Origin: Planctomycetota bacterium
GTDB lineage: Bacteria > Planctomycetota > Phycisphaerae > Phycisphaerales > Phycisphaeraceae
Assembly (NCBI GenBank): GCA_024276075.1
Contig: JAJRXX010000041.1
Span: 1-64,000, forward strand
Direction: 5' to 3'
Length of the DNA: 64,000 nucleotides
Both the position numbers and the translations under genes were made by a program. This document shows, in pieces, positions 48,590 to 63,308 of the stretch. Every line of letters begins with the position of its first letter. Within the stretch, counting starts at the first letter, position 1. The notes beneath the pieces are model-generated. The model ran no database searches. It was given only the letters and a program-made list of their open reading frames with translations, and had not been told where the DNA came from.

Positions 48590-49672
48590 CTATTTCCTAA
48601 GCGTCTGACCGGTGAGGTGCAGGAACACATCTTCAAGTGTGGGGTGTCCGACTGTGATGCTGCGGGTCGAGTCCGGGAATGCCCCCGCGAGCGTTGCGAC
48701 AAAGCCAGGTCCGTCCGATTTTTCCAGGTGGATGACCCCGTCGATCAGCACGGGTTTTGTCGTGTTGTCCCACGGACCGAACCGATCGGTGATCTGCTCT
48801 AGTAGCCCCTGTGCCTGACCCTGGGTCGGCTCGATGGTGACGACCTCGCCTCCGATCTTTGCTTTGAGCTGGGCGGGCGTGTCGAGTGCCACGAGTTTTC
48901 CTTCGTGCAGCACAGCCAACCGATCGCACCGGTCAGCTTCATCCATCAGGTGTGTCGTCAGAGCAATCGTCACGCCTTGCTTGTGACGCAGCGTCTCAAG
49001 CTGCTCCCACAGGTCTCGCCTCGCACCCACGTCCAGACCGGTCGAGGGCTCGTCGAGCAGCAGCAGTGGGGGGGCGTGGAGCATCGCCTTCGCCAACTCG
49101 ACCCGACGACGCATGCCTCCGCTAAGTATCTCCACGTGACGGTCAGCAGCATCGGGAAGGCCTACCTGTTCGAGCACCTTATCGATCCGGGAGTTCAGGT
49201 CGCTGCCCCGCAGTCCGTACATGTGGCCCTGGCATCGCAGGTTTTCTTTGGCTGTGAGCTTCACGTCGAGGCTCGGCGACTGGAACACGACGCCCAATTG
49301 TTTGCGTACCTCCCACGGTTGTGCGCACACGTCGTAGCCGAACACCGCCACGTTTCCGGACGTCGGACGCAGCAGCGTCGACAGAATCCGAAACAGCGTC
49401 GTCTTCCCGCCGCCGTTTGGGCCGAGGATGCCGAAAATTTCACCGGGCGAGATGCGTAGATTGACCCCGTCCAGTGCGGGTCGGTGGGGTACTTCACTCG
49501 CGTTTTGAGATTTGGCTGACTGACGCCGAGTGCGTCGCTTGGACCCGCTGGTGGCGGGGTATGTGTGGTTGAGATCGGCTATCTGGATAGCTGACGGATT
49601 CGTACTCTCCGCTGCGGGTGAGGAATAGTTCGTCGGATTGTTTTCGATGACGGCTTGACCAGCGGTGTTCAT
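48590..49672 (-). CDS. ABC transporter ATP-binding protein (ABC-2/DrrA type)
   Basis: 360 residues. Walker A GPNGGGKTT, Q-loop VFQSPS, signature LSGGMRRR, Walker B LLLLDEPS and H-loop TTHLMDEA. The N-terminal 50 residues are Ser/Arg-rich and the C-terminal 90 residues form the small DrrA-like extension. The permease partner is not encoded here; the next gene on this strand is cytochrome oxidase subunit IV, 78 bp upstream, and the downstream neighbour converges. ATG 49672 is preferred to a 10-residue longer start with poor context. Confidence 0.85.
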   Translation of the reverse strand: MNTAGQAVIENNPTNYSSPAAESTNPSAIQIADLNHTYPATSGSKRRTRRQSAKSQNASEVPHRPALDGVNLRISPGEIFGILGPNGGGKTTLFRILSTLLRPTSGNVAVFGYDVCAQPWEVRKQLGVVFQSPSLDVKLTAKENLRCQGHMYGLRGSDLNSRIDKVLEQVGLPDAADRHVEILSGGMRRRVELAKAMLHAPPLLLLDEPSTGLDVGARRDLWEQLETLRHKQGVTIALTTHLMDEADRCDRLAVLHEGKLVALDTPAQLKAKIGGEVVTIEPTQGQAQGLLEQITDRFGPWDNTTKPVLIDGVIHLEKSDGPGFVATLAGAFPDSTRSITVGHPTLEDVFLHLTGQTLRK

Positions 49673-49750
49673 AGTGAAAAGTATACCGTGCGGACAGGTC
49701 AAACTGCCCTGGCAATCAAACAGGCCGATTGAATCACTTAATTGATTGTA

Positions 49751-50167
49751 TCAATGATACGGTTCGTCGTCGGAAGGGTCCTGGGACAGCGAATCCTCGT
49801 GCCCATCTCCTTGGCTGTGTTCAGTCGACGGCACAAATTCTCGTAGCCCGGGCACTTGGTTATATGACTGGTCCTTGAGCGTTACGATATCGGTCAGGAT
49901 CGGCAGCACCGCGACGAATACCATCACAAACGGCGCCATCGCCAGAAAGACGATCAACTGTCTTTCGAACTTCAGGTGCATGAAATAGGTCAGTACGATC
50001 ACCGCTTTGGGCAGTGTGAACAGCAGCAGCAGCAGCACCATGGCGTACTTGGGCATCAGCCACTGGTTACGGGACCACACTTCGAACAGCACGACTTCTG
50101 CTGTTGTCAGTACCAGCAACGCCAGGAACAGTCCCCACAACGGTATGTGATGGTCTTTTTGAGACAT
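49751..50167 (-). CDS. Cytochrome c oxidase subunit IV (prokaryotic type)
   Basis: 138 residues from ATG 50167 (GAGGAA eight bases upstream) with three TM helices: LWGLFLALLVLTTAEVVLF, KYAMVLLLLLFTLPKAVIVL and FLAMAPFVMVFVAVLPIL. The YFMHLKFER turn between helices 2 and 3 is diagnostic of small oxidase subunit IV/CtaF proteins. An acidic C-terminal tail of about 40 residues is extra. Confidence 0.85.
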   Translation of the reverse strand: MSQKDHHIPLWGLFLALLVLTTAEVVLFEVWSRNQWLMPKYAMVLLLLLFTLPKAVIVLTYFMHLKFERQLIVFLAMAPFVMVFVAVLPILTDIVTLKDQSYNQVPGLREFVPSTEHSQGDGHEDSLSQDPSDDEPYH

Positions 50168-50227
50168 AGATATTTTCCTCAACAAAAAAAATGCCGTCGA
50201 TCCGTGTGGCCCGCATGCCGATGGGCG

Positions 50228-50878
50228 TCACATCAGGTAAACGATCGCGAACAGGATAATCCACACCAAGTCGACAAAGTGCCAGTACAACCCCGTTAGT
50301 TCAACGGCTGCGTAGTGTTTGGTATCGAATTTTCCAGCCAGTCCCATTAATGTGACCACTGCCATCGCGATCACGCCCAGGAAGACGTGTAGGCCGTGGA
50401 ACCCCGTCATCGCGTAGAAACAACTGCCGAAGATGTTCGTCGACGCGGTTAGACCCCGGTGGATCCATAGTTCGTAGTACTCATAGGCCTGTACACCGAC
50501 AAAGACCGCGCCCAGCAGCGTGGTCAGGAACAGCCCCCAGTTTCCTTTGGCGCGTTGGCCGGCCTGGATCGATTGCAGGCCCCACACCAGCGTGACGCTT
50601 GAGCAGATCAGCAGGAAGGTATTCACCGCAGTGAGCGGTACGTTGAGCGTCAGGTGCGGTTGGGGCCAATTGCCAGCCGGCTGGCCGAACCGGAGCACGA
50701 TGTACGCGCCGATCAGACCCGTAAAAAACATGACCTCGGAGCCCAGAAACAGCCAGATGGCGATCTTCCCATTGGGGATGCCCAGTTGCAGCACCGAGCC
50801 GTGTGCCATCAGCGGGGGTTCGCTGTCGGTGTGCGAGGATGAAGCGTGGAGTTCGTTCGTTGTGGCGGCGTGTGACAT
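50228..50878 (-). CDS. ctaE: Cytochrome c oxidase subunit III
   Basis: 216 residues from ATG 50878 (AAGGA six bases upstream). About five TM helices, shorter than the seven of the mitochondrial type and typical of bacterial operons. Conserved motifs: IWLFLGSEVMFFTGLIGAYI, AYEYYELW, MTGFHGLHVFLG, and GLYWHFVDLVWIILF at the C-terminus. It supports the stability of subunit I. Confidence 0.92.
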   Translation of the reverse strand: MSHAATTNELHASSSHTDSEPPLMAHGSVLQLGIPNGKIAIWLFLGSEVMFFTGLIGAYIVLRFGQPAGNWPQPHLTLNVPLTAVNTFLLICSSVTLVWGLQSIQAGQRAKGNWGLFLTTLLGAVFVGVQAYEYYELWIHRGLTASTNIFGSCFYAMTGFHGLHVFLGVIAMAVVTLMGLAGKFDTKHYAAVELTGLYWHFVDLVWIILFAIVYLM

Positions 50879-50931
50879 GGTCAATCCTTGTGTGGTCTTG
50901 AGCGGGTACGAATTTGCCCGCTAGCAATTGT

Positions 50932-51876
50932 TCAGCCTATGCCCTTGTAATCCAGAACCATCAAGCCATATACCAACGGCAGGTACAGCAGCGACGCCCA
51001 GAATAGCGCACGCGCGTGACGCCGTGTGCGCCCAGCGACTAGTGCTACCCCGAACCCTAAAAAGACAATACCCACCGCCAGCGATCCGAAAAAGTAAACG
51101 ACACCGCTCATGCCAAACATTGTGGGTACCAGTCCCAGCGGGACAAGCGCTAGACACCCAAGCAAAATTTGGCGGAACGTGCTGCCCCCAGCGGGATCGA
51201 TCACCGGTAAAAATGCCATGCCCGCTTTCGCGTATTCGTCGCGGTACAGCCACGCGATCGCCAGGAAGTGCGGCAATTGCCACAGGAAAAGGATCGCAAA
51301 CAGTACCCACGCCTCCACAGTGACTCGGCCCGTCACTGCGGTGTACCCCATCACCGGGGGCAGCGCGCCGGGCACCGCGCCGATGATGGTCGATACGCTG
51401 CTGATCCGTTTCATGGGTGTGTAGACCAGTGCATAGCTGAAGATCGTGAACGCGCTGAGTCCCGCTGTCAGGGCGTTTGTCGTCACGGCCAGGAGGCCGA
51501 CTCCAGCGGTGCACAGGCCGACGCCGATCAGCATTGCCACCCCCGTGCTCATGCGGCCGGCGGATACCGGGCGGTTTTGCGTGCGCCGCATCAGCGCATC
51601 GGTATCCTGTTCGTACACTTGGTTAAATGCACTGGCACCCATGCACGACAGAGCGACGCCGATCAGTGTGCTTGTGAGTGTGAGCCACGAGGTTTCACCG
51701 GCCCACGGGCTTTTGCTAGCCAGTAAAAATCCGATATACGTCGTCAAGACCACCATCATCGTCAGGCGAGGTTTAGTTAGCAGGTTCAGGTCGGACAGGA
51801 GTGATTGGGCTGATGCGTTTGCATGGCTTTGCCCGGCGACCAGGACCCTGGCTCTGGGATTAGTGAGTTGTGTCAT
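50932..51876 (-). CDS. ctaB: Protohaem IX farnesyltransferase (haem O synthase)
   Basis: 314-residue membrane prenyltransferase with nine predicted TM helices. The active-site motifs are ASAFNQVYEQDTDALMRRT (metal-binding Asp pair) and LAIAWLYRDEYAKAGM. It adds a farnesyl group to haem B, the step before haem A. The start overlaps the ctaA stop by 4 bp, and they form the haem A module of the oxidase operon. Confidence 0.95.
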   Translation of the reverse strand: MTQLTNPRARVLVAGQSHANASAQSLLSDLNLLTKPRLTMMVVLTTYIGFLLASKSPWAGETSWLTLTSTLIGVALSCMGASAFNQVYEQDTDALMRRTQNRPVSAGRMSTGVAMLIGVGLCTAGVGLLAVTTNALTAGLSAFTIFSYALVYTPMKRISSVSTIIGAVPGALPPVMGYTAVTGRVTVEAWVLFAILFLWQLPHFLAIAWLYRDEYAKAGMAFLPVIDPAGGSTFRQILLGCLALVPLGLVPTMFGMSGVVYFFGSLAVGIVFLGFGVALVAGRTRRHARALFWASLLYLPLVYGLMVLDYKGIG

Positions 51877-53045
51877 GCCGGCGCCCCTTTCAGGCTTGCG
51901 GTGGCGGCGGGTGTATCGGTCGAGGTGTGGCGTATGGGTGGCGGCGGTAGGACGTGCACACGGATGGCCAGCACCGTCGCCGTCGCAAGCAGAGCTGCGC
52001 CTGTGCCCTGGTGAGCCGTGGCGAATTCATTATTCCAATCCGATTGGCCGGTCCAGATCACCAACGCCCCAAGCGCTATCTGGGCGATTAACAGACACGC
52101 CAGTGTGAGCATCGGTGTTGTTAGACGCTGGTCTTTGTTCATCTCAGCGCCCAAGCCTTTAGCGAATACCGCAAACATCGCGAACACCGCCACCGCCCAT
52201 ACCCGGTGCGAAAAGTGCACGCCCACCTGCCCGACTCCGTAGTACCGGTCGAACTGCTCGTAGGGAGCCTTGTTGATGGCTGCGCGGATTGTACTGTCGG
52301 TCATCGGGGGCCAGAGTTGTCCGTACGCACTTGGGAAGTCGGGGATTGCAAGCCGCGAGCCGGTGTGCCGCATCGTCGCGCCCAGGACGAGCTGAATCAC
52401 CATTACCGCCAGCAAGCCCAGCGATAGTCGTCGCAGCTTGTGGCTGTAACGGTTGGGGGCACATTCGGGTGTGTTTTCCTGAGTCGCATTGAGCCAAAGC
52501 CTGCTCGTTGCCGATGCGATCAATACGGTTACACACAGAAATAATTGTGCCGTCACGCCGTGCAGCACCGCCAGCGTGACCGACATCTCCGTCACCCGCA
52601 GCCCACCCATCACGCCCTGGATAATGACCAACGCCAGCGCCCCGACCGCCAGCCACCTTAACCACGGACGATCGTTCGATAGTGAGAGGTTAGCGTTTGA
52701 TCGGCATAAGAAGGGCCAACCGGCAGCTAGTCGGTAGGGCAGTTTGGTATTTAAGTATGGCAGCCAGATGAGCTGCGCCACAATGATTGTGATCACGCCC
52801 ACCGCGCTGCCCGCCAGCCGATGCAGGTGTTCCCAGAACACGCCGCCCCGACCGATCCATGTCGCCAAGGGTACACCGAACATGTTGTATCCGAACGTGG
52901 TGGGCCAGTCCGGCACTGCCAGTCCCACGCCTTTGCTCGTCACCGTGCCGCCCAGGACGATCAACCCGAACGTCGCCGCCACAAGCACCACCGCAATCCG
53001 GTACGTCCAGGGGCGATACGTAGAGAGTGGGGGTGTTGTCGTCAT
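51873..53045 (-). CDS. ctaA: Haem A synthase
   Basis: 390-residue COX15/CtaA protein with eight TM helices. Haem-binding histidines appear in FWEHLHRLAGSAVG (first half) and VGVHFSHRVWAVA (second half), with LGATMRHTGSRLAIPDFPSAYG between. It oxidises the haem O methyl to formyl. An inserted stretch of about 30 residues (around SNANLSLSNDRPW) precedes the second module. Gap to subunit I is 112 bp with no gene. Confidence 0.95.
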   Translation of the reverse strand: MTTTPPLSTYRPWTYRIAVVLVAATFGLIVLGGTVTSKGVGLAVPDWPTTFGYNMFGVPLATWIGRGGVFWEHLHRLAGSAVGVITIIVAQLIWLPYLNTKLPYRLAAGWPFLCRSNANLSLSNDRPWLRWLAVGALALVIIQGVMGGLRVTEMSVTLAVLHGVTAQLFLCVTVLIASATSRLWLNATQENTPECAPNRYSHKLRRLSLGLLAVMVIQLVLGATMRHTGSRLAIPDFPSAYGQLWPPMTDSTIRAAINKAPYEQFDRYYGVGQVGVHFSHRVWAVAVFAMFAVFAKGLGAEMNKDQRLTTPMLTLACLLIAQIALGALVIWTGQSDWNNEFATAHQGTGAALLATATVLAIRVHVLPPPPIRHTSTDTPAATASLKGAPA

Positions 53046-53157: not shown

Positions 53158-55785
53158 TCAGTGTCCCGTAGGCTCGACGACACCGGCTGGCAGTACGAGC
53201 ACCTGTGGCAGATAGTCTTGCTCGACCGCCGGTGAGCTGTATTCGTACGGCCCGCGGTGGACAGTCGGAATCTCGTCGAAGTTTAGGTGCGGCGGGGGCG
53301 AAGTCGTGGTCCATTCGAGAGAGTTGGCGTTCCACGGGTTTGTCCCCGGATCGAATCCAAACTCGTCCTTCGACCGTGACAAGATCAGGCACGCCAACCC
53401 AGGCAGTCCCACCAGCGCCAAAATCAGCCAGCGATGCGCGAATAGGCCCGGAACACCCAGCCAGAGGTACGCATCGTGTTTAAGTATCAGTGGTGCCAGG
53501 AACGCCGGCAGCCACACCAGGTGCAGCACCCGATTGAGCCACAGGGGCATGCGTAGCAGACCGCCTACCGTCCAGATGATGAACACCGCGATGGTCACCA
53601 CGACGCTGTAGATCACGCCGTTTATCAACGCGCCGCCCAGTGTTGGGTAGAAATTAAGTGCTTCCGCATCGTACCCACTCCAGAAGCTCACGCCGATTAC
53701 CATCGGCAGTCCGAGCATCACGATGAATATCGCTGTCAGCGCTCGGCCTAGCTTTCGCGGCAGGCTTGTAAATACGTTGAAGAAGAACGGGATTTGTGCC
53801 ATCCCCATCATCATGGCGAAGATCGTCATGAACACGTTCATCGGTTGGAGGTGCATGAGCGTGGGGTATTCCATGATCGACGCGTACCGTCGGGGGTGTC
53901 CCCCGATGCCCAGGATGTGCATCAGGAAGAACGTTCCGTTAAACGCAATGACCGTCATCCAGAAGTGGATCACCCCCCAGCGTTGATTGAGTTGTCTGCC
54001 GAACATTTTCGGGAACCACTGGTATATCCCCGCGAAGATGGCAAACAGTGACCCGCCGAATAGTACGTAGTGGATGTGTGCGACGATGAAATAGGTGTCG
54101 TGTATCGGGATATCGACCGGCGCGCTGGCCATGAATATCCCGCTTAGGCCGCCGATCACGAACATGCTCACAAACGCTAAAGCGTTGAGCATCGGGGGCG
54201 TGAAGCGGATGTCGCCGCCCCAGAGCGTGCCGAGCCAATTAAACGTCTTGATCGCCGAAGGTACCGAGATCATGATTGTCGACGCCATAAACGTCATGCC
54301 CAGCGTCGGGTTCATACCTGACTGGAACATGTGGTGTCCCCACACGATGAACCCCAGCCCCGTGATCGTGGCCATCGAGTAGACCATTGGCTTGTACCCG
54401 AAGATCGGCTTGCGTGTGTGGCACGACAGCACATCACTGACCACACCCATCCCCGGCAGGATCATGATGTACACCGCTGGGTGCGAGTAGAACCAGAACA
54501 GGTGCTGGAACAGCAGCGGTTGGCCGCCCGCAGCGGGCAGGAAGAAATGCGTTCCTATCGTCCGGTCCAGCAGCAGCAGCACCATCGCGGCTGTCAGTAC
54601 GGGTGTGGCAAAGCACGCCAGGATTGACGTGATAAACATCGCCCATACTGTCAGCGGCATGCGGAACATGGTCATGCCCGGTGCGCGCATGTTCATGATT
54701 GTCGTCAGGTAATTTATGGCGCCCACCACCGAGCTGAAACCTATCAGCCCCACCGCTACGATCCAGAGTGTCGTACCAATTTGCGAGGAATAAGCTGTCT
54801 CTGAGAAGGGCGGGTACATTGTCCAGCCCCCACCCGCAGCGCCGCCTGGCGTCCAGAAGCTGATCAGCATGATCACGCCCGCCGGCACCGCTAGCCAGAA
54901 TGCCAGCATGTTCAGTTTCGGGAACGCCATATCGCGAGCACCGATCATCAGCGGGATCAGGAAGTTGCCGAACCCGCCCACCAACATCGGGATGATCACC
55001 AAGAAGATCATGATTGACGCGTGCATCGTAAATAATTGCAGGTACGCGTCCGTCGTCAAAGTCTCTTTGTAAAAGGTCACTTTGTCGGCTGTGGTTTCGA
55101 GCGTTTTGCCATTGGCTTTGATTGAGACGGGTGTTTGGCCCGCACGGATGGGCAGGAGGATCGGTCCACTAACGGTTTTTGCACGCGGCGCGTTCGAGCC
55201 GTCGGTGATCATTTTTTCAACGCCGACCAGAGTCAACTGTTGCGGTGAGTCGTCTCTCGCGGTTGTCACGGTCACGCCCGCAACCGTACGGGCCTCTTGT
55301 TTGGCGTAGTTGTAGTCGGCCATCACCATTACCGGATCGACCCATGCGGGTATTGCGTTGTCGAGTACCCGTGTTTGGCCGGTGTCGCCACGCACCATTG
55401 TTCCCGCGGGCAGTGTGACCGCCAACCCCTTTGGGAAGCCGGTAAGCGTTGCTATGTCTTGGCCGCTTAGTTTCTGCCCATTCACGTCAAGGTCGGATTT
55501 CACCTCGACCTCACAGCCCATTTTCCACAGCGCCAAGTTCGCCTCTGGAGCCTTACTTGTCATCTTGCCCGGAAGGATTTTTGCGTACGGAACGTTTTGG
55601 TTTGGCCAGGCGATCTGGTAGCGCACGCCCAGCGCCAGCAAGCCACCCATAATCACGAATAGCAACGCAGCGAACGTGAATTGGATACCGATGACCTTGT
55701 GATCGGTGGAGAAGATGTATTTGGTGATGAAGTTGGAGGGCCCGTGGTGCTGGTCGTCATGTCCGCTGCCATGGTTCGTGCTCAT
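53158..55785 (-). CDS. ctaD: Cytochrome c oxidase subunit I, A2 type, with a large periplasmic insertion
   Basis: 875 residues, against about 550-620 for typical enzymes. Haem and copper ligands are all present: His255 (FTMHASIM), His435 and Tyr439 (YSHPAVYI), His484/485 (GHHMFQSG), His570 and His572 (IVAHIHYV). YSHPAVY instead of GHPEVY marks the A2 subfamily. Between TM1 (about 33-55) and TM2 (from 250) there is an extra soluble region of about 185 residues (61-245, with KVGP-free, Gly/Thr-rich beta-type sequence), facing the periplasm where CuA sits. Additional TM helices follow helix XII before the standard end NANSLEWTTTSPPPHLNF. It pumps protons and reduces O2. Confidence 0.93.
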   Translation of the reverse strand: MSTNHGSGHDDQHHGPSNFITKYIFSTDHKVIGIQFTFAALLFVIMGGLLALGVRYQIAWPNQNVPYAKILPGKMTSKAPEANLALWKMGCEVEVKSDLDVNGQKLSGQDIATLTGFPKGLAVTLPAGTMVRGDTGQTRVLDNAIPAWVDPVMVMADYNYAKQEARTVAGVTVTTARDDSPQQLTLVGVEKMITDGSNAPRAKTVSGPILLPIRAGQTPVSIKANGKTLETTADKVTFYKETLTTDAYLQLFTMHASIMIFLVIIPMLVGGFGNFLIPLMIGARDMAFPKLNMLAFWLAVPAGVIMLISFWTPGGAAGGGWTMYPPFSETAYSSQIGTTLWIVAVGLIGFSSVVGAINYLTTIMNMRAPGMTMFRMPLTVWAMFITSILACFATPVLTAAMVLLLLDRTIGTHFFLPAAGGQPLLFQHLFWFYSHPAVYIMILPGMGVVSDVLSCHTRKPIFGYKPMVYSMATITGLGFIVWGHHMFQSGMNPTLGMTFMASTIMISVPSAIKTFNWLGTLWGGDIRFTPPMLNALAFVSMFVIGGLSGIFMASAPVDIPIHDTYFIVAHIHYVLFGGSLFAIFAGIYQWFPKMFGRQLNQRWGVIHFWMTVIAFNGTFFLMHILGIGGHPRRYASIMEYPTLMHLQPMNVFMTIFAMMMGMAQIPFFFNVFTSLPRKLGRALTAIFIVMLGLPMVIGVSFWSGYDAEALNFYPTLGGALINGVIYSVVVTIAVFIIWTVGGLLRMPLWLNRVLHLVWLPAFLAPLILKHDAYLWLGVPGLFAHRWLILALVGLPGLACLILSRSKDEFGFDPGTNPWNANSLEWTTTSPPPHLNFDEIPTVHRGPYEYSSPAVEQDYLPQVLVLPAGVVEPTGH

Positions 55786-55876: not shown

Positions 55877-56815
55877 TTAATACCCCTCGTCCTCGTCGCC
55901 CAGGTCGAGGTACGAGGCTTCTTCTTCGAGGAACGCTTCGTATTGATCGTGGGTCACCACGTACAGTTTTCCGCGCATCTTGAAGTGGCCCTGACCACAA
56001 AGCTCGGCACAGACGATGTCAAATGGTTTTGCATAGTCGAACATATCCATCTCATCGGGGCTGGTCCCGATGACCTGTGCGCTGGTTCGGTCCGCCTCGA
56101 TCCAGACCCTCGCGTTTAGGCCTGGCATCGCGTCTTGTTTAATCCGAAAATTAGGCAGGAAAAAGCTGTGTATTACATCCACGCTGCTGAGCTTGATCAG
56201 CACCTTGGTGTTTACGGGGACCGCCATGATCGGCGATACGATGTCGTCTATTCCATCCGGGTGCGACCGGTCGAGCCCGATGAGTTTCTCCGGGTCGGCG
56301 CTCTGTGTGTCGATCAGGCTGGTCTGGCGTGGTCCGAGCTGGCCGTCGCTGCCGGGGTAGTGGAAGTACCAGGCAAATTGCCTGCCGATCACCTCCATCT
56401 CCACGGTGTCGTCGCTTTTCGTGATAACGGGTTGCTGTTTGATGTTCGACCAAGTTGCTTGGCTGAATGCCGCGATTAACGCCAGGATTACCGTCGGGAT
56501 CAGCGTCCACACCAGTTCCAGCTTGCTGTTGCCGCGAATAAACACCCCGTGTCGACCCGGTCGGTGTCGGTACTTGAACAAGAATATCGCCATCGTTATG
56601 AACACCGTGATGCAGATCGCCACGGTCAGGTACAAGATAAAGTTGAAAAGCAGATCGATCTGCTGGGCTGCGGGGAAGACGTTTTCGGGTAGCCACCAGC
56701 CCCGAGGCCCCGTGGTCTCTTGAGGCTGTGCCTGCGCCGTGGCGGCGCCCATAGAGGTCGCGAGCGTGAACGCCAGGGCCGGGATTGGTATCAGTAATTT
56801 CTTGACGGTTGACAA
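55877..56815 (-). CDS. ctaC: Cytochrome c oxidase subunit II with CuA site
   Basis: 312 residues: signal peptide, two TM helices (54-80 and 98-118), then the cupredoxin domain. CuA ligands are His216, Cys269, Glu271, Cys273, His277 and Met280 (IHSFFLP and CAELCGQGHFKM). The electron-entry aromatic cluster is QFAWYFHYPG. There is no fused cytochrome c domain, so electrons arrive from a separate donor, possibly the cupredoxin or octahaem proteins encoded just upstream. Confidence 0.95.
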   Translation of the reverse strand: MSTVKKLLIPIPALAFTLATSMGAATAQAQPQETTGPRGWWLPENVFPAAQQIDLLFNFILYLTVAICITVFITMAIFLFKYRHRPGRHGVFIRGNSKLELVWTLIPTVILALIAAFSQATWSNIKQQPVITKSDDTVEMEVIGRQFAWYFHYPGSDGQLGPRQTSLIDTQSADPEKLIGLDRSHPDGIDDIVSPIMAVPVNTKVLIKLSSVDVIHSFFLPNFRIKQDAMPGLNARVWIEADRTSAQVIGTSPDEMDMFDYAKPFDIVCAELCGQGHFKMRGKLYVVTHDQYEAFLEEEASYLDLGDEDEGY

Positions 56816-56961: not shown

Positions 56962-57756
56962 CTATTTTTTCTTTTTTGGGCCGTAGGTTACGGTGACTTG
57001 CTTGGTTTCCCCGTCGCCGACGGACACGCTGATTGTCTTGTGGTCTGGGGCAAATTTCTTGAATTCATGCCACACGCTCAATTCGTAATCACCCGCAGGT
57101 AGGCCCCGGATCTCGAACGTGCCGTCCTGCTGCGTGACCGCGAAGAATGGGTGCTCCACCACGTGCAGGTACGCTCCCATCCACGGGTGTACGTCGCACC
57201 GGATCGGGATCGCCGACTCGGGCTTGGAGAACTTCTTCGTGATGACCATGCCCTTGACCGGCATGCCCTCGTTGAATGAGCCGTTGTTGGAGCTGTTCAT
57301 CTTGACATTGTGCAGCGTGCTGTCGCTATTGAGGATGTCGAGGTCCTGATTGACCATCACGCCGCTGACGTGCGGCACGTACATGCAACCGGTCTGGTCC
57401 AAGGCTGCGTTGCCTGTGGCAGAAAAACTCTTGCCCGCCAAGCCCTTGCTCACCCACACGAACACGTTTTGGAGTGTTTTGTTATCGCCGAAGACGTACC
57501 GCTCATTTTTCGCTTTTTTTCCAGGGTGTGCCTTGTCGCAGTATGCGTCGGCGTTCATGCGGATCGGTTTGCGTTTGGCCTTCTTGCCGTCAAACTTCAC
57601 CACGCCCTTGATCGTGCCGCCCGCCTGGTCGATTCCGCCGACGTTGATCGACGGGGCATTGGCCCACGTGTTACCACCACCGAGCACAAAGCTTAATACC
57701 GCCGCCACGGCGACAGTGGTAGCGGTTCTGTATCGATCAAATAAGTCAGTGTTCAT
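56962..57756 (-). CDS. Exported cupredoxin-like protein, paralogue of the end of the octahaem protein
   Basis: 264 residues with a signal peptide (about 1-33). Type-1 copper ligands are readable: His149 (TLHNVKM), Cys187, His190 and Met193 (IRCDVHPWMGAY). A small beta-sandwich domain of the carboxypeptidase-regulatory type (GTFEIRGLPAGDYELSVWHE) and a Lys-rich tail (YGPKKKK) follow. Residues 49-235 match residues 1573-1755 of the neighbouring giant protein closely. It is likely a periplasmic electron carrier between that protein and CuA of the oxidase. Confidence 0.8.
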   Translation of the reverse strand: MNTDLFDRYRTATTVAVAAVLSFVLGGGNTWANAPSINVGGIDQAGGTIKGVVKFDGKKAKRKPIRMNADAYCDKAHPGKKAKNERYVFGDNKTLQNVFVWVSKGLAGKSFSATGNAALDQTGCMYVPHVSGVMVNQDLDILNSDSTLHNVKMNSSNNGSFNEGMPVKGMVITKKFSKPESAIPIRCDVHPWMGAYLHVVEHPFFAVTQQDGTFEIRGLPAGDYELSVWHEFKKFAPDHKTISVSVGDGETKQVTVTYGPKKKK

Positions 57757-57959: not shown

Positions 57960-60900
57960 CTAATCTTTTTTCAAGGTTACGTCCACGCGGTGCGAAGTGT
58001 CGGCAGCGACGGTTACTTCAAACTCCATCGACGCGACCTTTTTTTGCTCGTGAATTGCTTCGAGTGTGTATGTCCCAGGCGGTAGGCCCGTGATCTCGAA
58101 CCGACCCTCTACGTCGCTCACAGCGAAGAACGGGTGTTCGACAACGTATAGATATGCTCCCATCCATGGGTGCACGTCGCACCTGAGGTTGATACCCAGT
58201 TCAGGTTTCGACAACACCTTGTCGAGCCGCATGCCTTGAACCGGCATGCCCTCGTTAAACGCCCCGTTTTTGGAACTGTTCATTTTAACGTTGTGTAGGG
58301 TGTTATCACTGTTGAGGATCACCAGGGGCTGGCCCGCTGTGACGCCCATCACGTGGGGGTGGTACATACAGCCGTTCTGATTGATCACCGCAGGCTCTTG
58401 TGGTACTGCGGTGTTACCCGATAGCCCCGATTTTACGTAGATGAAAACGTTACGCATCGTCGAGTCTTTGTTTACGACCATGCTCGGGTCGAATACCTTT
58501 TTCTTGTGTGCTTTTTTGCAGAAAGCGTCGGCACCCATGCGGAGGGGTTTGCGGCGGGCGGGCTTGCCCTCGAACTTGACCACGCCAACGACTCGGCCGT
58601 TTCCACCGCCGTCGTGTGATGCGGTTGCCCCGTCGTGCAAATCAATCGTTGATTTTGTGGCGTCCTCTTGCGGTTTCGGGGGCGCGACGACGGACGCGGG
58701 GGTTGAGGCTTGGCTCTGAGCCTGATCGTCACCCGCTGTATCAGCCGTGCCACTTTGCTCACCGCTGTCTTTGGGTTGTTTTTCAACGATCTTCGGCTTC
58801 GGTAGTGGCGTTAATTCAATCTTTTTCGGCTGTTCGCCTTGGAGCCGTTCTTCGCCCGGGGTGTAGCCCGTCCTGCCCGCTTCGTAGATGAAGTCCATCA
58901 GGACTCGGCGCTGGTCCGCGCCGAGGTAGCCGTACTGAGCGTGCATCTGTTCCTTGACCTGACCGGGGTAGTTAGAGAACGCCGATTGGCCGTCGGGGAA
59001 CCACTGAGGCATTTTTGTGCCCGGCTGGATCGTCGCGGGCTCTTGGAGCCAACGATCGACCCAGTCCCATCGTAAACGGTCGCCGGTGTAAGACAGGTTC
59101 GGTGCGGTGTATACAGGTCCGGTGGGGGCGGCCTCTTGCTCGTCTTCGTCGCCGTAACCGTAATCCTCTTCTTCCTCATCGTCGTAGCCGTAGTCTTCCT
59201 CATCCTCTTCCGGCTCGTCGTCGCTGCTCTGAACTTCGTCCGCAGGGACGTCGGGGTTATCGAGTTTCCAGAGTGCTAGCAGCTTTTCTTCATCACCCAA
59301 TGCGTGGCACTGGTAGCAGCGCAGCTCGTTAAAGAGCGCTTCGCCGCGGTCAAACCATTGCTCGTCGTCTGTTCCCGGCTGCGGCGTCTGTGTGAAGGGA
59401 TACGTCACGTCGTTCATCGATTGCAAGAATTTAGCTTCTTTGTGAAGCTTCGCCCACTTCTGAGCTAGCTCAGGCAGCGTGGCTTCGAAAGGATCGAGTT
59501 CCTTGGACTTCGCTAGCTCGGTTTCCAACGCAAAGCCATGTAGCCGATTTGTCGCCTTCTTGATGTTCGACCGAGTAAACCAGTTGCTGTCGTCGGGATG
59601 GGATGCCCGGTACGGATCGATCGAATCGAGGTCCTTGGCCAAGTGCTCGGACATCTTCTGGCTTTGGGCGGCGAAGTACGCCACCAGCGACGTCGCGTCT
59701 TCACTGGACATGGGGAAGCTGGGCATGCGGACCTTCAGCCAAGGTCGAAGTTCATGTACGTTTTGCAGGAAGTCGTGCAGCCATTGCGGCTGGGTTTTGG
59801 CACCTTGTCCGATTAGCCGGGGTGGAGCGTTGTTCAGGTGATCATAATTAAACGAGCCGTCTGGGTTAAACACGTCAAAGTACGCCCATATCTGTGGTGT
59901 GTTGCTATCGATGTTGTGGCAGCCGTAGCAGTTGTACCGCGTCGCGAGTTGTTTGCCCCGTGCCACCTGTAGGGCCGTCTCGTTTACAGCTAACTGCTGC
60001 ATCGACGGCGTTACCAGCGGTTTGCGGATACTCGTCACGAACGTGACCAACGCTTCGACCTGCGTATCGGTCAGGAAGAACTTGGGCATCTTCATCTTGT
60101 CGTATGGCTTGCCCACGTTCGAGCTTTGCGCGTCGAATCCACCGTCTTCGTTTAGATGTCCGTCAAACGCGGTTCGGCCCCGGTCGTAGACACGCGGGTT
60201 GTGCAGCTTGTGGTACAGCCACTCGCGACGCCCCAACGCGCCCAGTGTTTCCCAATTGAGCGTGACTTGATTGATCTTATCGTCGTGGTGTGAGACCTGC
60301 GGAGCGTCAGCGGCTACGCCTTCGTGATCGACTTTCCAAACAGTGATGGGCTTTTCTCGCTGTTTGTCGAAAGCGTGGTCGAAATAACCGAAATCCAATT
60401 TGTGCGGGTCCTTCACCCCCCAGTCGTCTAGATTCGCGCACGTCGATGCGGCTGTCTCAAAGCCGTTGATCTGGTGGCAGTTGTTGCACCCGTAGTTACC
60501 GATCATCTTCTTGCCCAGGAACGTCAACTGCTCGTCGGTCGTCATACCCGGCTCGTCGGGTGTGCCGTTGACTTCCTCTCTGGCATTTGCGAGCGTGGTG
60601 CCAGCAGATTTGAGCTGTGCGGTCAACTCGGCGAGCATCTTCTTCCCGTCGTCGTCCAATGCCTGGAAATCAGTTGGCTTGTAACCCGGACGCTCCAGCG
60701 ACAGCAAATACGTCGTGAGGTCCGCCGCTTCTTGTTCCGAGAGCCGGAAGCTGGGCATGATGGTGTAACTCGAGTAATGGCGCGGGTTACGCAGCCAGTC
60801 GTACAGCCACGCCGCGGCCTGCTGGTGCGCCGAGGCGGCGTCCCGGCCCGCTTTGAGCTTGGTGCCCACACCCGACAGTTCGGGCCCCGTGCGTTCGAGC

Positions 60901-63308
60901 TTGTCGGGCAGGTGCTCCATGGCGTACCAGTGCTGTTGGTTGTACGTCATGTGCTCGTACTGCTGCTGGGCCTGGTCCTCGTCCGCACCGGTACGGTTGA
61001 CCAAGTCTTCGACGATCCAGTCTTCCCCGTATTCATCCAGGTTGCTGTGGCACGCCAAGCAGCCCACGCTGTTAAACAGCTTCCGTCCAGCGGCGGTATC
61101 GCCCTGGAGGTCCTCAGGCATCGGTTCGGGCTCGTAGGGAGAGGTGGCTCCTTGTGTCGGCTCCGCTTTCAGGAGGTAGTGCGTGATCGCCGCCACTTCG
61201 GTGCGGGTACGCAGGATGTCCACCGGGGAGGAGTTGTTCTCGAGCATGAAGTAGTGGGGCATCTTCGTCGTTGGCCGGAATGCTTTGGGCGACCATATCC
61301 ACGACGCGATCATCGGGGCGGTTAGCTTTTGCCGGACATGTGCCAGGTTCGGGCCGACCTTCTTGATATCCAGATCGTCTTCGAGCGACTCGACCGCGTG
61401 ACAGTTTACGCAGCCCATTTGTGAAAACAGCAAACGCCCCTCGTGCAGCTTCGGCGCAGCCTCGGCAATGTCGAATACCTCGGTGTGGCACTTGTTGCAG
61501 CTTGACTCGATAAACCGCATCTCGTGCATCGGTTTTTCCCACTCCATGTAGTGCACCGCGTGCCACCCGTGCGCGTGTCCCCAATACTCCGCTTGCTTCA
61601 CAGCTAGGGCGTCCCGGTCGGGCTCGCTGATCGAACGGTAGCTCAGCGAGCCGGCGTGTGAGCCTTGCTGGGGCGCAAAGGGTGCCGGGTCGTTCGGGTC
61701 GGTTAGCTTGATGTCGTCATGGGTAGACCGTGCTTCGCTCGTCTGTTTGCTGTGTTCACCGCTCGTGCTCGATGCCATCACGGTCTGGGCGCCGTCGATC
61801 GACCACCCTGTTGCCCATGCCGAGCCTGGGGTGGCTACGCCGCCTGCGTGGTGCGTCCCGGAAGCGTGCTCAAGCAGGAACTCTGGCACCGGGGCGCCTG
61901 TCTCGGCGTCGACCCAGATATCCTGTGGTATATGCGCTGCGTGTACAAAGTCCGTCTCCTGCCCCGAACCCTCGTGGCAGGATGTGCAGCCCATCGTCTT
62001 CATCGGGTGCGGTGACTCCACGTCTACGTATAGGTCCAGACGCGGGTGGCCCAGCAGCACGGGGTTGGCACTGAGCGACGGCAATCCGTTTTCACCGCGG
62101 TGTTCGTTGTACCGCTCGATGAGCACTTGTCGGTACATCCCGCGTAGGTGTTTAAATTGCTTATCCTCCAGGGACTCCAGGAGCAACCGTTTTACGTCGG
62201 ATAGATACCGCTCGATCGGCCTGTACCACTGCGCCCTTGTCTGTTCGACGCTACCTTGTTCGTGCAAAGCGATGCGTTCAAATTCATCTGCTAAAGCGTC
62301 ATCCGATTCCAATGGGTCTAGGCCCGCGTCGCTTCGCAACCCGTTGATCGTTTCCACCGCGTGTTCTTTGAGGGTGCCTAGTTCCAGCCCCGCTAGCGTG
62401 GCGGCACGCTCCCAAAAACTCAGCATCACCACGGGGCTCGAGATCGAATTCACGTCCTGGCCCTCATGCGATGCCACCTGACGCTCGGCGAACAGCAATA
62501 AGTGGTGTTCCTCAAAGGCGGGGTTGTCGATGTTCACGTGGCAGGTGCTGCACCGGTCAATCGTCTCGACGGTCAGGTAGTTTAGGTCTGTGCGGATGTC
62601 GGGTACGACGACCTGCTGGACTTTTTCAGAAGGGTTAAACCAGTCCAGCAGCGGCGCGTTTCTGATGGTATCGCTGAGCTTTGCCAGCCCCTGTGGATCG
62701 AGCTTTTTTAGTTTGTCCGCCAGAGAGTTGCGTGTGCGCGTCAAGTCGTTGATCTGTTTTTGTACTGTCGTTTCTGCCGCCAGCAGTTTGTTTAGCTGAT
62801 CTGATAGGGTCTCGATCGTTTCTTCCTGCTTAGCAATTTCCGATGCCTTCCGGCGGTAATCTTTTTTCAGCTTCGCCAGTTCCTCTTCGAGTTGAGCGAT
62901 ATTTTCAGAGCCGGCGAGTCGGGCACGCTCGAGCTGCTGGGTCTTGGGGCCGATCTCGCCCTTGACCGCGGCGGCGGGGAGGGTCAGGCGGTCTCTCTTA
63001 CGCGTGGTCGCTTCGAGTTGAGCGGTGGCCTCGGCGATTTGATCTCGCGGGAGCGTCGCCCCCAGCGATTGGATACGTTCCTCCAGGTCTCTCAATTCAC
63101 GTTGTTGCTGAGCGTCGAGCGCGTGTGTCTGGGCGTCGATGGTCATCGCCGCTTCCCACGCGCGTCCCTGACGCTGGTAGTCGCGCCATTGACGGGTATA
63201 GTCAGCCATTACCAGCCACCCCATCGATGCGAGTAGGGCGATCGCCGATACGGCAAATACCAAGTGCAGTTTGTTTTGGTCACGCAGGGTGTCGGTTGAT
63301 ACGGGCAT
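57960..63308 (-). CDS. 1782-residue membrane-anchored octahaem cytochrome c with C-terminal cupredoxin domain
   Basis: Layout: one TM helix (15-36) with the rest in the periplasm; coiled coil (60-205); eight CXXCH haem sites starting at residues 253, 441, 604, 633, 750, 941, 1127 and 1331; an acidic Tyr/Glu/Asp linker (1362-1391); a Pro/Lys region (1495-1550); and a cupredoxin domain with His1672, Cys1710, His1713 and Met1716. Methionine motifs in KMPHYF, IMPSF, KMPKF, RMPSF and KMPQW suggest Met-ligated haems in at least five units. Several units (about 620-870 and 1110-1215) look like tandem mono-haem domains. It sits directly upstream of the caa3-like oxidase genes. Expected role: conducting electrons from the quinol-oxidising side to CuA. 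Confidence 0.88.
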   Translation of the reverse strand: MPVSTDTLRDQNKLHLVFAVSAIALLASMGWLVMADYTRQWRDYQRQGRAWEAAMTIDAQTHALDAQQQRELRDLEERIQSLGATLPRDQIAEATAQLEATTRKRDRLTLPAAAVKGEIGPKTQQLERARLAGSENIAQLEEELAKLKKDYRRKASEIAKQEETIETLSDQLNKLLAAETTVQKQINDLTRTRNSLADKLKKLDPQGLAKLSDTIRNAPLLDWFNPSEKVQQVVVPDIRTDLNYLTVETIDRCSTCHVNIDNPAFEEHHLLLFAERQVASHEGQDVNSISSPVVMLSFWERAATLAGLELGTLKEHAVETINGLRSDAGLDPLESDDALADEFERIALHEQGSVEQTRAQWYRPIERYLSDVKRLLLESLEDKQFKHLRGMYRQVLIERYNEHRGENGLPSLSANPVLLGHPRLDLYVDVESPHPMKTMGCTSCHEGSGQETDFVHAAHIPQDIWVDAETGAPVPEFLLEHASGTHHAGGVATPGSAWATGWSIDGAQTVMASSTSGEHSKQTSEARSTHDDIKLTDPNDPAPFAPQQGSHAGSLSYRSISEPDRDALAVKQAEYWGHAHGWHAVHYMEWEKPMHEMRFIESSCNKCHTEVFDIAEAAPKLHEGRLLFSQMGCVNCHAVESLEDDLDIKKVGPNLAHVRQKLTAPMIASWIWSPKAFRPTTKMPHYFMLENNSSPVDILRTRTEVAAITHYLLKAEPTQGATSPYEPEPMPEDLQGDTAAGRKLFNSVGCLACHSNLDEYGEDWIVEDLVNRTGADEDQAQQQYEHMTYNQQHWYAMEHLPDKLERTGPELSGVGTKLKAGRDAASAHQQAAAWLYDWLRNPRHYSSYTIMPSFRLSEQEAADLTTYLLSLERPGYKPTDFQALDDDGKKMLAELTAQLKSAGTTLANAREEVNGTPDEPGMTTDEQLTFLGKKMIGNYGCNNCHQINGFETAASTCANLDDWGVKDPHKLDFGYFDHAFDKQREKPITVWKVDHEGVAADAPQVSHHDDKINQVTLNWETLGALGRREWLYHKLHNPRVYDRGRTAFDGHLNEDGGFDAQSSNVGKPYDKMKMPKFFLTDTQVEALVTFVTSIRKPLVTPSMQQLAVNETALQVARGKQLATRYNCYGCHNIDSNTPQIWAYFDVFNPDGSFNYDHLNNAPPRLIGQGAKTQPQWLHDFLQNVHELRPWLKVRMPSFPMSSEDATSLVAYFAAQSQKMSEHLAKDLDSIDPYRASHPDDSNWFTRSNIKKATNRLHGFALETELAKSKELDPFEATLPELAQKWAKLHKEAKFLQSMNDVTYPFTQTPQPGTDDEQWFDRGEALFNELRCYQCHALGDEEKLLALWKLDNPDVPADEVQSSDDEPEEDEEDYGYDDEEEEDYGYGDEDEQEAAPTGPVYTAPNLSYTGDRLRWDWVDRWLQEPATIQPGTKMPQWFPDGQSAFSNYPGQVKEQMHAQYGYLGADQRRVLMDFIYEAGRTGYTPGEERLQGEQPKKIELTPLPKPKIVEKQPKDSGEQSGTADTAGDDQAQSQASTPASVVAPPKPQEDATKSTIDLHDGATASHDGGGNGRVVGVVKFEGKPARRKPLRMGADAFCKKAHKKKVFDPSMVVNKDSTMRNVFIYVKSGLSGNTAVPQEPAVINQNGCMYHPHVMGVTAGQPLVILNSDNTLHNVKMNSSKNGAFNEGMPVQGMRLDKVLSKPELGINLRCDVHPWMGAYLYVVEHPFFAVSDVEGRFEITGLPPGTYTLEAIHEQKKVASMEFEVTVAADTSHRVDVTLKKD

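Follow-up and report, generated by a model that had tools for sequence, protein, structure and literature searches.

The described complexes closest to the locus analysed here come from anammox bacteria and from Actinobacteria. For the former, the part of the report accessible to us (PMC12954380) identifies entry 9rk3 as crystalline Kustd1480 of Kuenenia stuttgartiensis and describes Kustd1485 as anchored in the membrane, with long helices near its N-terminus wrapped around the complex. It states that why so many haems are required is not fully clear, and it makes no mention of a cupredoxin as a partner. The actinobacterial III–IV supercomplex contains QcrC, a dihaem, membrane-bound complex III cytochrome, which is thought to reduce CuA directly, with no soluble cytochrome c in between (PMC5040959, PMC8361435). 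For the class in question, a genome survey of the Phycisphaerae reported alternative complex III as the sole kind in Phycisphaerales and did not find a cytochrome bc1 complex there (PMC11266412).

The window (the whole stretch of DNA analysed, 64,000 nucleotides from a member of the Phycisphaeraceae) encodes an octahaem cytochrome c joined to a cupredoxin. We think that the octahaem protein works like QcrC; it differs in having eight haems instead of two and in the copper domain, which QcrC lacks, and the sequence matches between them are of the generic cytochrome c kind only. More similar are the octahaem proteins (937–948 residues) of three anammox-type loci (L144–L146), where they are encoded together with a Rieske protein, cytochrome b, an NAD(P)-oxidoreductase-like protein and subunit IV. 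L144 was identified as belonging to the Kustd1480–1485 type by its Rieske protein, which matches 9rk3 over all 117 residues (E = 7e-81), and it is through this assignment, and not through the Kustd1485 sequence itself, that the two types were compared. Profiles of the window type and the anammox type align with a probability of 100 (E = 1e-111, 604 columns), and both have the same eight haem motifs, Met and His residues. In contrast, the anammox-type cluster includes the NAD(P)-oxidoreductase-like gene and has neither an adjoining oxidase nor a copper domain. The octahaem subunit itself is therefore a known kind of protein and its fusion to a cupredoxin appears to be new; a literature search, with most subscription journals outside its reach, found no description of a cupredoxin–multihaem fusion.

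The fusion protein and its origin

The fusion gene starts with ATG and runs through 1782 uninterrupted codons to one stop. Its parts are as follows:

57960..63308, minus strand: octahaem cytochrome c–cupredoxin fusion, 1782 residues (open reading frame and motifs; full-length collinear homologues in L004, L035 and L036)
63198..63269, minus strand: the sole N-terminal membrane anchor, residues ~14–37 (only hydropathy maximum above 1.6)
62664..63176, minus strand: putative coiled coil, residues ~45–215 (matches of residues ~50–220 to SMC, golgin and laminin coiled-coil models)
59007..62552, minus strand: octahaem region, residues 253–1434 (motifs and ligands without exception in the 41 homologues from Phycisphaerae and the 20 from other planctomycetes)
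58617..58871, minus strand: low-complexity linker rich in P, E, K, Q and S, residues ~1480–1564 (sequence reading)
57963..58616, minus strand: C-terminal copper domain, residues 1565–1782 (model pLDDT 94.9; four copper ligands)

An earlier note on this DNA had placed haem and copper parts in a single frame of 1782 residues with a membrane anchor and a coiled coil. The open reading frame and the motif count bear out the single frame, and the one strongly hydrophobic stretch, at residues ~14–36, bears out the anchor. The coiled coil stays putative, indicated by its matches to coiled-coil models; the long helices described for Kustd1485 (PMC12954380) would fit it. The haem part and the copper domain are separated by the linker of about 85 residues, which is flexible.

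The domain order was looked for in other genomes, as the earlier note had proposed, and was found in families f1 and f5 and in genomes G127 and G738. Four separately assembled Phycisphaeraceae genomes carry the fusion. In one of them, an independently deposited metagenome-assembled genome (L004), the homologue reaches 62% identity in its best segment, and the match spans residues 1–1780; two others of the same family code, f1 (G300 and G053), have a collinear fusion, and three f5 genomes are likewise fused. Across most of the class the two parts are normally encoded separately, and the loss of a single stop codon could mimic a fusion, so two genes joined by an error of assembly or sequencing have to be weighed as an explanation. 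The earlier note had named such an assembly join, between residues 1490 and 1570, as what would overturn its reading; this is excluded by the collinear fused frames of L004, G300 and G053, which are 49–62% identical to the window protein. With f5 also fused, and with the fused domain forming a clade of its own distinct from the separate copies, we consider the chance of any such artefact negligible.

The fusion arose more than once. In the octahaem tree, two changes have to be assumed for the fused rows, and the starred branches make at least two unavoidable. The cupredoxin tree places the fused domain of G127 together with unfused cupredoxins of f10, the family to which that genome belongs, and apart from the fused domains of f1 and f5. 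G738, from family f56 elsewhere in the phylum, has a third fusion (1560 residues, eight CXXCH motifs, copper ligands present), encoded in one cluster together with Rieske, cytochrome b and subunit IV. Judged from these comparisons, the cupredoxin was fused at least three times: in f1 plus f5, in G127 and in G738. An unfused cupredoxin is retained in each of the three lineages. The separate operon cupredoxins of planctomycetes have the same domain and ligands as the fused copy, but are free-standing and have a signal-like N-terminus. In f1, fused and separate cupredoxins form two distinct clades, with the deeper fork drawn open; the likely course is a tandem duplication before the family split, after which one copy was fused, with the separate operon cupredoxin as the source.

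Haem ligands and the copper domain

The eight CXXCH motifs described in the earlier note lie at residues 253, 441, 604, 633, 750, 941, 1127 and 1331, far above chance (shuffled versions of the first 1560 residues contain 0.007 motifs on average and never more than 1). Its five Met-Pro motifs are right in substance: six occur within the haem region (683, 730, 851, 1074, 1195 and 1433), and the Met of all except 730 is invariant across 61 homologues. In the 41 Phycisphaerae sequences, the eight CXXCH motifs, M683, M851, M1074, M1195 and M1433, and the three non-motif histidines H421, H434 and H459 are invariant, and the same set is invariant in 20 sequences from other planctomycete families (61/61 in total). 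M594 and H685 are well-conserved ligand candidates, yet they are not invariant in the 20 additional sequences.

The layout is thus one of three N-terminal haems with H421, H434 and H459, followed by five haems with invariant Met. Since eight proximal His, five Met and three further His provide exactly one distal ligand per haem, the predicted ligand set is complete, with five His/Met and three bis-His haems. We assign the five Met to the C-terminal haems because class-I cytochromes are usually laid out in this way, and the three extra His would then each serve one of the N-terminal haems. An AlphaFold model of the octahaem core, calculated without haems, is of middling quality (pLDDT 74.5, pTM 0.73). 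Searching the PDB with this model gave no match at E < 0.001, and a PDB sequence search with the haem part returned class-I cytochrome c pieces only.

The copper domain is modelled confidently. The cupredoxin fold occupies residues ~1637–1723 (model residues ~73–159), and the flanking segments form a transthyretin/carboxypeptidase-regulatory-like beta-sandwich. Among the best matches in structure comparison by Foldseek and VIA-align are plastocyanin (84 residues superposed with an rmsd of 1.6, Z = 11.0) and amicyanin (Z = 10.4), along with transthyretin-like domains (Z = 11–12). The complete type-1 copper ligand set claimed by the earlier note, H1672, C1710, H1713 and M1716, is present in the sequence as a predicted copper site. 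All four ligands are kept in 39 of 40 aligned domains, the exception being a paralogue in L043; they are present in 8/8 aligned fused proteins and also in G738. The C-x2-H-x2-M loop is of the amicyanin type. The domain therefore shares its fold with plastocyanin and amicyanin and the loop type with amicyanin; unlike them, it sits inside a transthyretin-like domain and is linked to an octahaem cytochrome. A Pfam scan of the window proteins did not call a cupredoxin domain, and the unfused relative in L047 gives a weak PF00127 match. By ligand set and modelled fold, the fused domain would be a type-1 copper protein, presumably loaded with copper.

Gene neighbourhood and the Rieske/cytochrome b link

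Next to the fusion gene, the window holds these genes:

56962..57756, minus strand: separate cupredoxin of the same family, 264 residues, with a hydrophobic, signal-peptide-like N-terminus (55% identical to the fused domain; same four ligands)
55877..56815, minus strand: CoxB, subunit II, with a CuA motif and without a haem c domain (PF02790, PF00116; motif)
53158..55785, minus strand: CoxA, subunit I, 875 residues (PF00115; loop lengths)
51873..53045, minus strand: haem A synthase, which we take to be CtaA-like (sequence features and operon place; order conserved in 30-plus loci)
50932..51876, minus strand: haem O synthase, presumably CtaB-like (sequence features and operon place; conserved order)
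50228..50884, minus strand: CoxC, subunit III (NCBIfam; conserved order)
49751..50185, minus strand: CoxD, small caa3-type subunit IV (TIGR02229, under its cut-off; conserved order)
48590..49702, minus strand: ABC transporter ATPase, conserved at the operon end (NCBIfam; conserved order)

The separate cupredoxin gene adjoins the fusion gene directly downstream and lies between it and the oxidase genes. CoxB has COX2_TM and COX2 domains and the CuA motif CAELCGQGHFKM. Its sequence contains no CXXCH, confirming the view of the earlier note that subunit II lacks a haem c domain, which a caa3 oxidase would have.

Searched with a profile of the octahaem core (E up to 1e-30), 66 of 397 Phycisphaerae genomes have relatives, five of these being partial, weaker matches, all in genus g89; so do 143 of 392 genomes drawn from the phylum. 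The octahaem family is Planctomycetota-wide. Gene order was counted in loci read with enough flank, both in Phycisphaerae and in a sample of 20 loci belonging to other planctomycete families. Typically, the genes run in the order Rieske, cytochrome b, subunit IV, octahaem and cupredoxin, often followed by cox2-cox1-cox3 and haem A genes: in both sets, the octahaem gene directly follows the Rieske/cytochrome b/subunit IV genes in most such loci, a cupredoxin gene comes after it in most and cox2-cox1-cox3 in many. In f16 and some other families, the octahaem gene has no Rieske/cytochrome b neighbours in the stretch examined, so that the order is common, not universal. Pfam assigns the genes upstream of octahaem to PF13370 plus PF00355 (4Fe-4S plus Rieske), PF00033 (short cytochrome b) and PF00032; the cytochrome b of these loci is split and b6-like. 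The Phycisphaerae Rieske protein has an N-terminal 4Fe-4S ferredoxin-like domain (L093:7901-8968; L047:1152-2252, Pfam-confirmed in L047), and the Rieske proteins of anammox-like loci are far shorter (168–188 residues). A HEAT-repeat-like protein is kept just upstream of the Rieske gene in many loci (e.g., L093:6752-7819).

Octahaem and cytochrome b also occur together across genomes. Among the 397 Phycisphaerae, PF00033 is present in 65 of the 66 genomes with octahaem and in 42 of the 331 without it (Fisher p ~1e-44, a guide only, as kinship is left out of account; PF00033 covers other types of cytochrome b as well). In the window's family, nine genomes without octahaem were checked; they lack PF00033 too and carry NrfD.

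The genome from which the window comes has a Rieske-type protein (best match 9rk3, 5.9e-35), cytochrome b and subunit IV, but on contigs other than that of the octahaem gene. The end of contig C17 (L093) carries the HEAT-like protein, the ferredoxin-Rieske protein and cytochrome b, and contig C53 (L092) carries cytochrome b and subunit IV. The two cytochrome b copies, both at contig ends, are 94.6% identical over 833 bases; at the end of C53, the last 53 bases of the Rieske region are followed by ~1.7 kb that includes a DNA methyltransferase-like reading frame. The copies are probably strain variants of one locus in a metagenome-assembled genome, with two true gene copies as the other option. 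Among the reading frames read beside these cytochrome b genes, we found no CXXCH protein and hence no single-haem cytochrome c1; in relatives, it is the octahaem gene that takes the place of cytochrome c1 beside cytochrome b. PF03916 (NrfD, ActC-like) has no match in this genome (95.8% complete), with matches in 19 of the 22 genomes searched, and the genome thus lacks the mark of alternative complex III. A b6-like complex without c1, as in the genomes studied here, could be missed by annotation based on bc1. The genome and its family relatives with b6-like cytochrome b, subunit IV and Rieske therefore qualify the survey of Phycisphaerales (PMC11266412); they do not correct it, since the placing of the window's genome in that order is drawn from the relative L004 and from group codes.

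The best NCBIfam scores of cytochrome b and subunit IV in this genome are to ExtP and ExtQ, both under the curated cut-offs (L092:8317-10313); these belong to the Geobacter ext operon, annotated for selenite/tellurite reduction. The octahaem protein in turn has weak profile matches to MtrC/OmcA-type domains, and multihaem cytochromes of comparable haem number perform extracellular electron transfer in other organisms. The protein might thus be a conduit to the cell exterior or to another periplasmic acceptor, placed beside an oxidase incidentally. We regard this as improbable: many families keep the order Rieske-cytochrome b-subunit IV-octahaem-cupredoxin-oxidase, the octahaem protein has one N-terminal anchor and an unsystematic look through the loci read noticed no porin-like partner.

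The same genome encodes one CuA subunit II. Its other c-type cytochromes include dihaem proteins on C14 and C45 and a monohaem protein (C34:82 kb), and a cbb3-type CcoN-like oxidase gene adjoins a dihaem cytochrome c in L106 (G000:C45). A third cupredoxin of the family (258 residues) lies directly beside a copper nitrite reductase (L003:107-2223; G000:C3, minus strand), the latter scoring 324.6 bits against TIGR02376 (cut-off 296.3). The free copy by cox2 and this third copy together suggest that the copper-protein family supplies several periplasmic copper enzymes.

A proposed path from quinol to CuA

The Rieske/cytochrome b link is, in our view, the key to octahaem function, and the fusion is a lineage-specific form of a phylum-wide subunit. 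We propose, with a probability of about 0.78, that a Rieske/cytochrome b complex has the octahaem protein as its cytochrome c subunit and that, with the copper tail fused to it, this protein passes electrons from quinol towards a CuA oxidase. The protein would stand where cytochrome c1 or f stands in other complexes. Electrons from quinol would reach the membrane-anchored octahaem protein through the Rieske cluster and travel along the haem chain to the type-1 copper on its flexible linker. From there, CuA of the neighbouring aa3-type oxidase would be reduced by the tethered domain itself, by the separate cupredoxin or by the two together. Taken together, gene order, co-occurrence and repeated fusion make this the most economical reading, and it is from them that we infer complex membership, the course and direction of electron flow, copper loading and the transfer to CuA. 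When neighbouring genes fuse repeatedly, this speaks strongly for a joint function of their products. Here it points to the cupredoxin as the electron acceptor of the octahaem protein and suggests that two steps of oxygen respiration are linked within the protein itself. If the proposal is true, the system would be the planctomycete counterpart of the actinobacterial III–IV supercomplex, and a quinol-to-oxygen route would become testable in one protein.

Several observations pull the other way. The Rieske/cytochrome b genes of the window's own family are not beside the octahaem gene, nor is the oxidase in f5; the other c-type cytochromes and the cbb3-type oxidase could use other routes; the cupredoxin beside the copper nitrite reductase means that these domains need not serve only the oxidase; and octahaem also occurs where no CuA oxidase was found (genome G009) or without an adjoining oxidase (anammox-type clusters).

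Some of these observations bear on the copper domain in particular. The octahaem protein could belong to the Rieske/cytochrome b complex with its fused copper lying off the main aa3 path: the separate cupredoxin would then carry the electrons, and the fused copper would serve another acceptor, such as the copper nitrite reductase, or act as a structural docking site. The separate cupredoxin sits between the fusion gene and cox2 in 4/4 f1 genomes and next to cox2 in f5, the third copy lies beside nirK, and most of the class manages without a fusion, all of which this alternative accommodates. The retention of the four ligands in the fused proteins, together with at least three occurrences of fusion, is more easily explained by selection for electron transfer than by a passive role, and we therefore consider an off-path copper unlikely, although a serious contender.

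The built-in electron wire ending in copper that the earlier note had put forward thus holds in part. The fusion is real, the haem-ligand set is full, the copper fold is modelled and the linkage to a CuA oxidase is conserved. However, the earlier reading missed the Rieske/cytochrome b input end, revealed here by the linkage in the family, and likewise the separate cupredoxin; with this unfused protein encoded between fusion and oxidase, a further relay may follow the tethered copper.

The path from quinol to CuA might further be housed in a standing III–IV assembly, in which octahaem replaces cytochrome c1 and, in some lineages, the tethered cupredoxin replaces a diffusing carrier, all cofactors from Rieske to CuA being tethered. 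We offer this tentatively and at somewhat less than even odds.

CoxA shows a peculiarity of its own. About 225 residues separate the landmarks of TM I and TM II in 4/4 f1 genomes; the spacing is 56–73 in the other oxidases in which both landmarks were found. A tie between the long loop and the fusion was rejected, since the f5 genomes, which are also fused, have 66 residues at this position.
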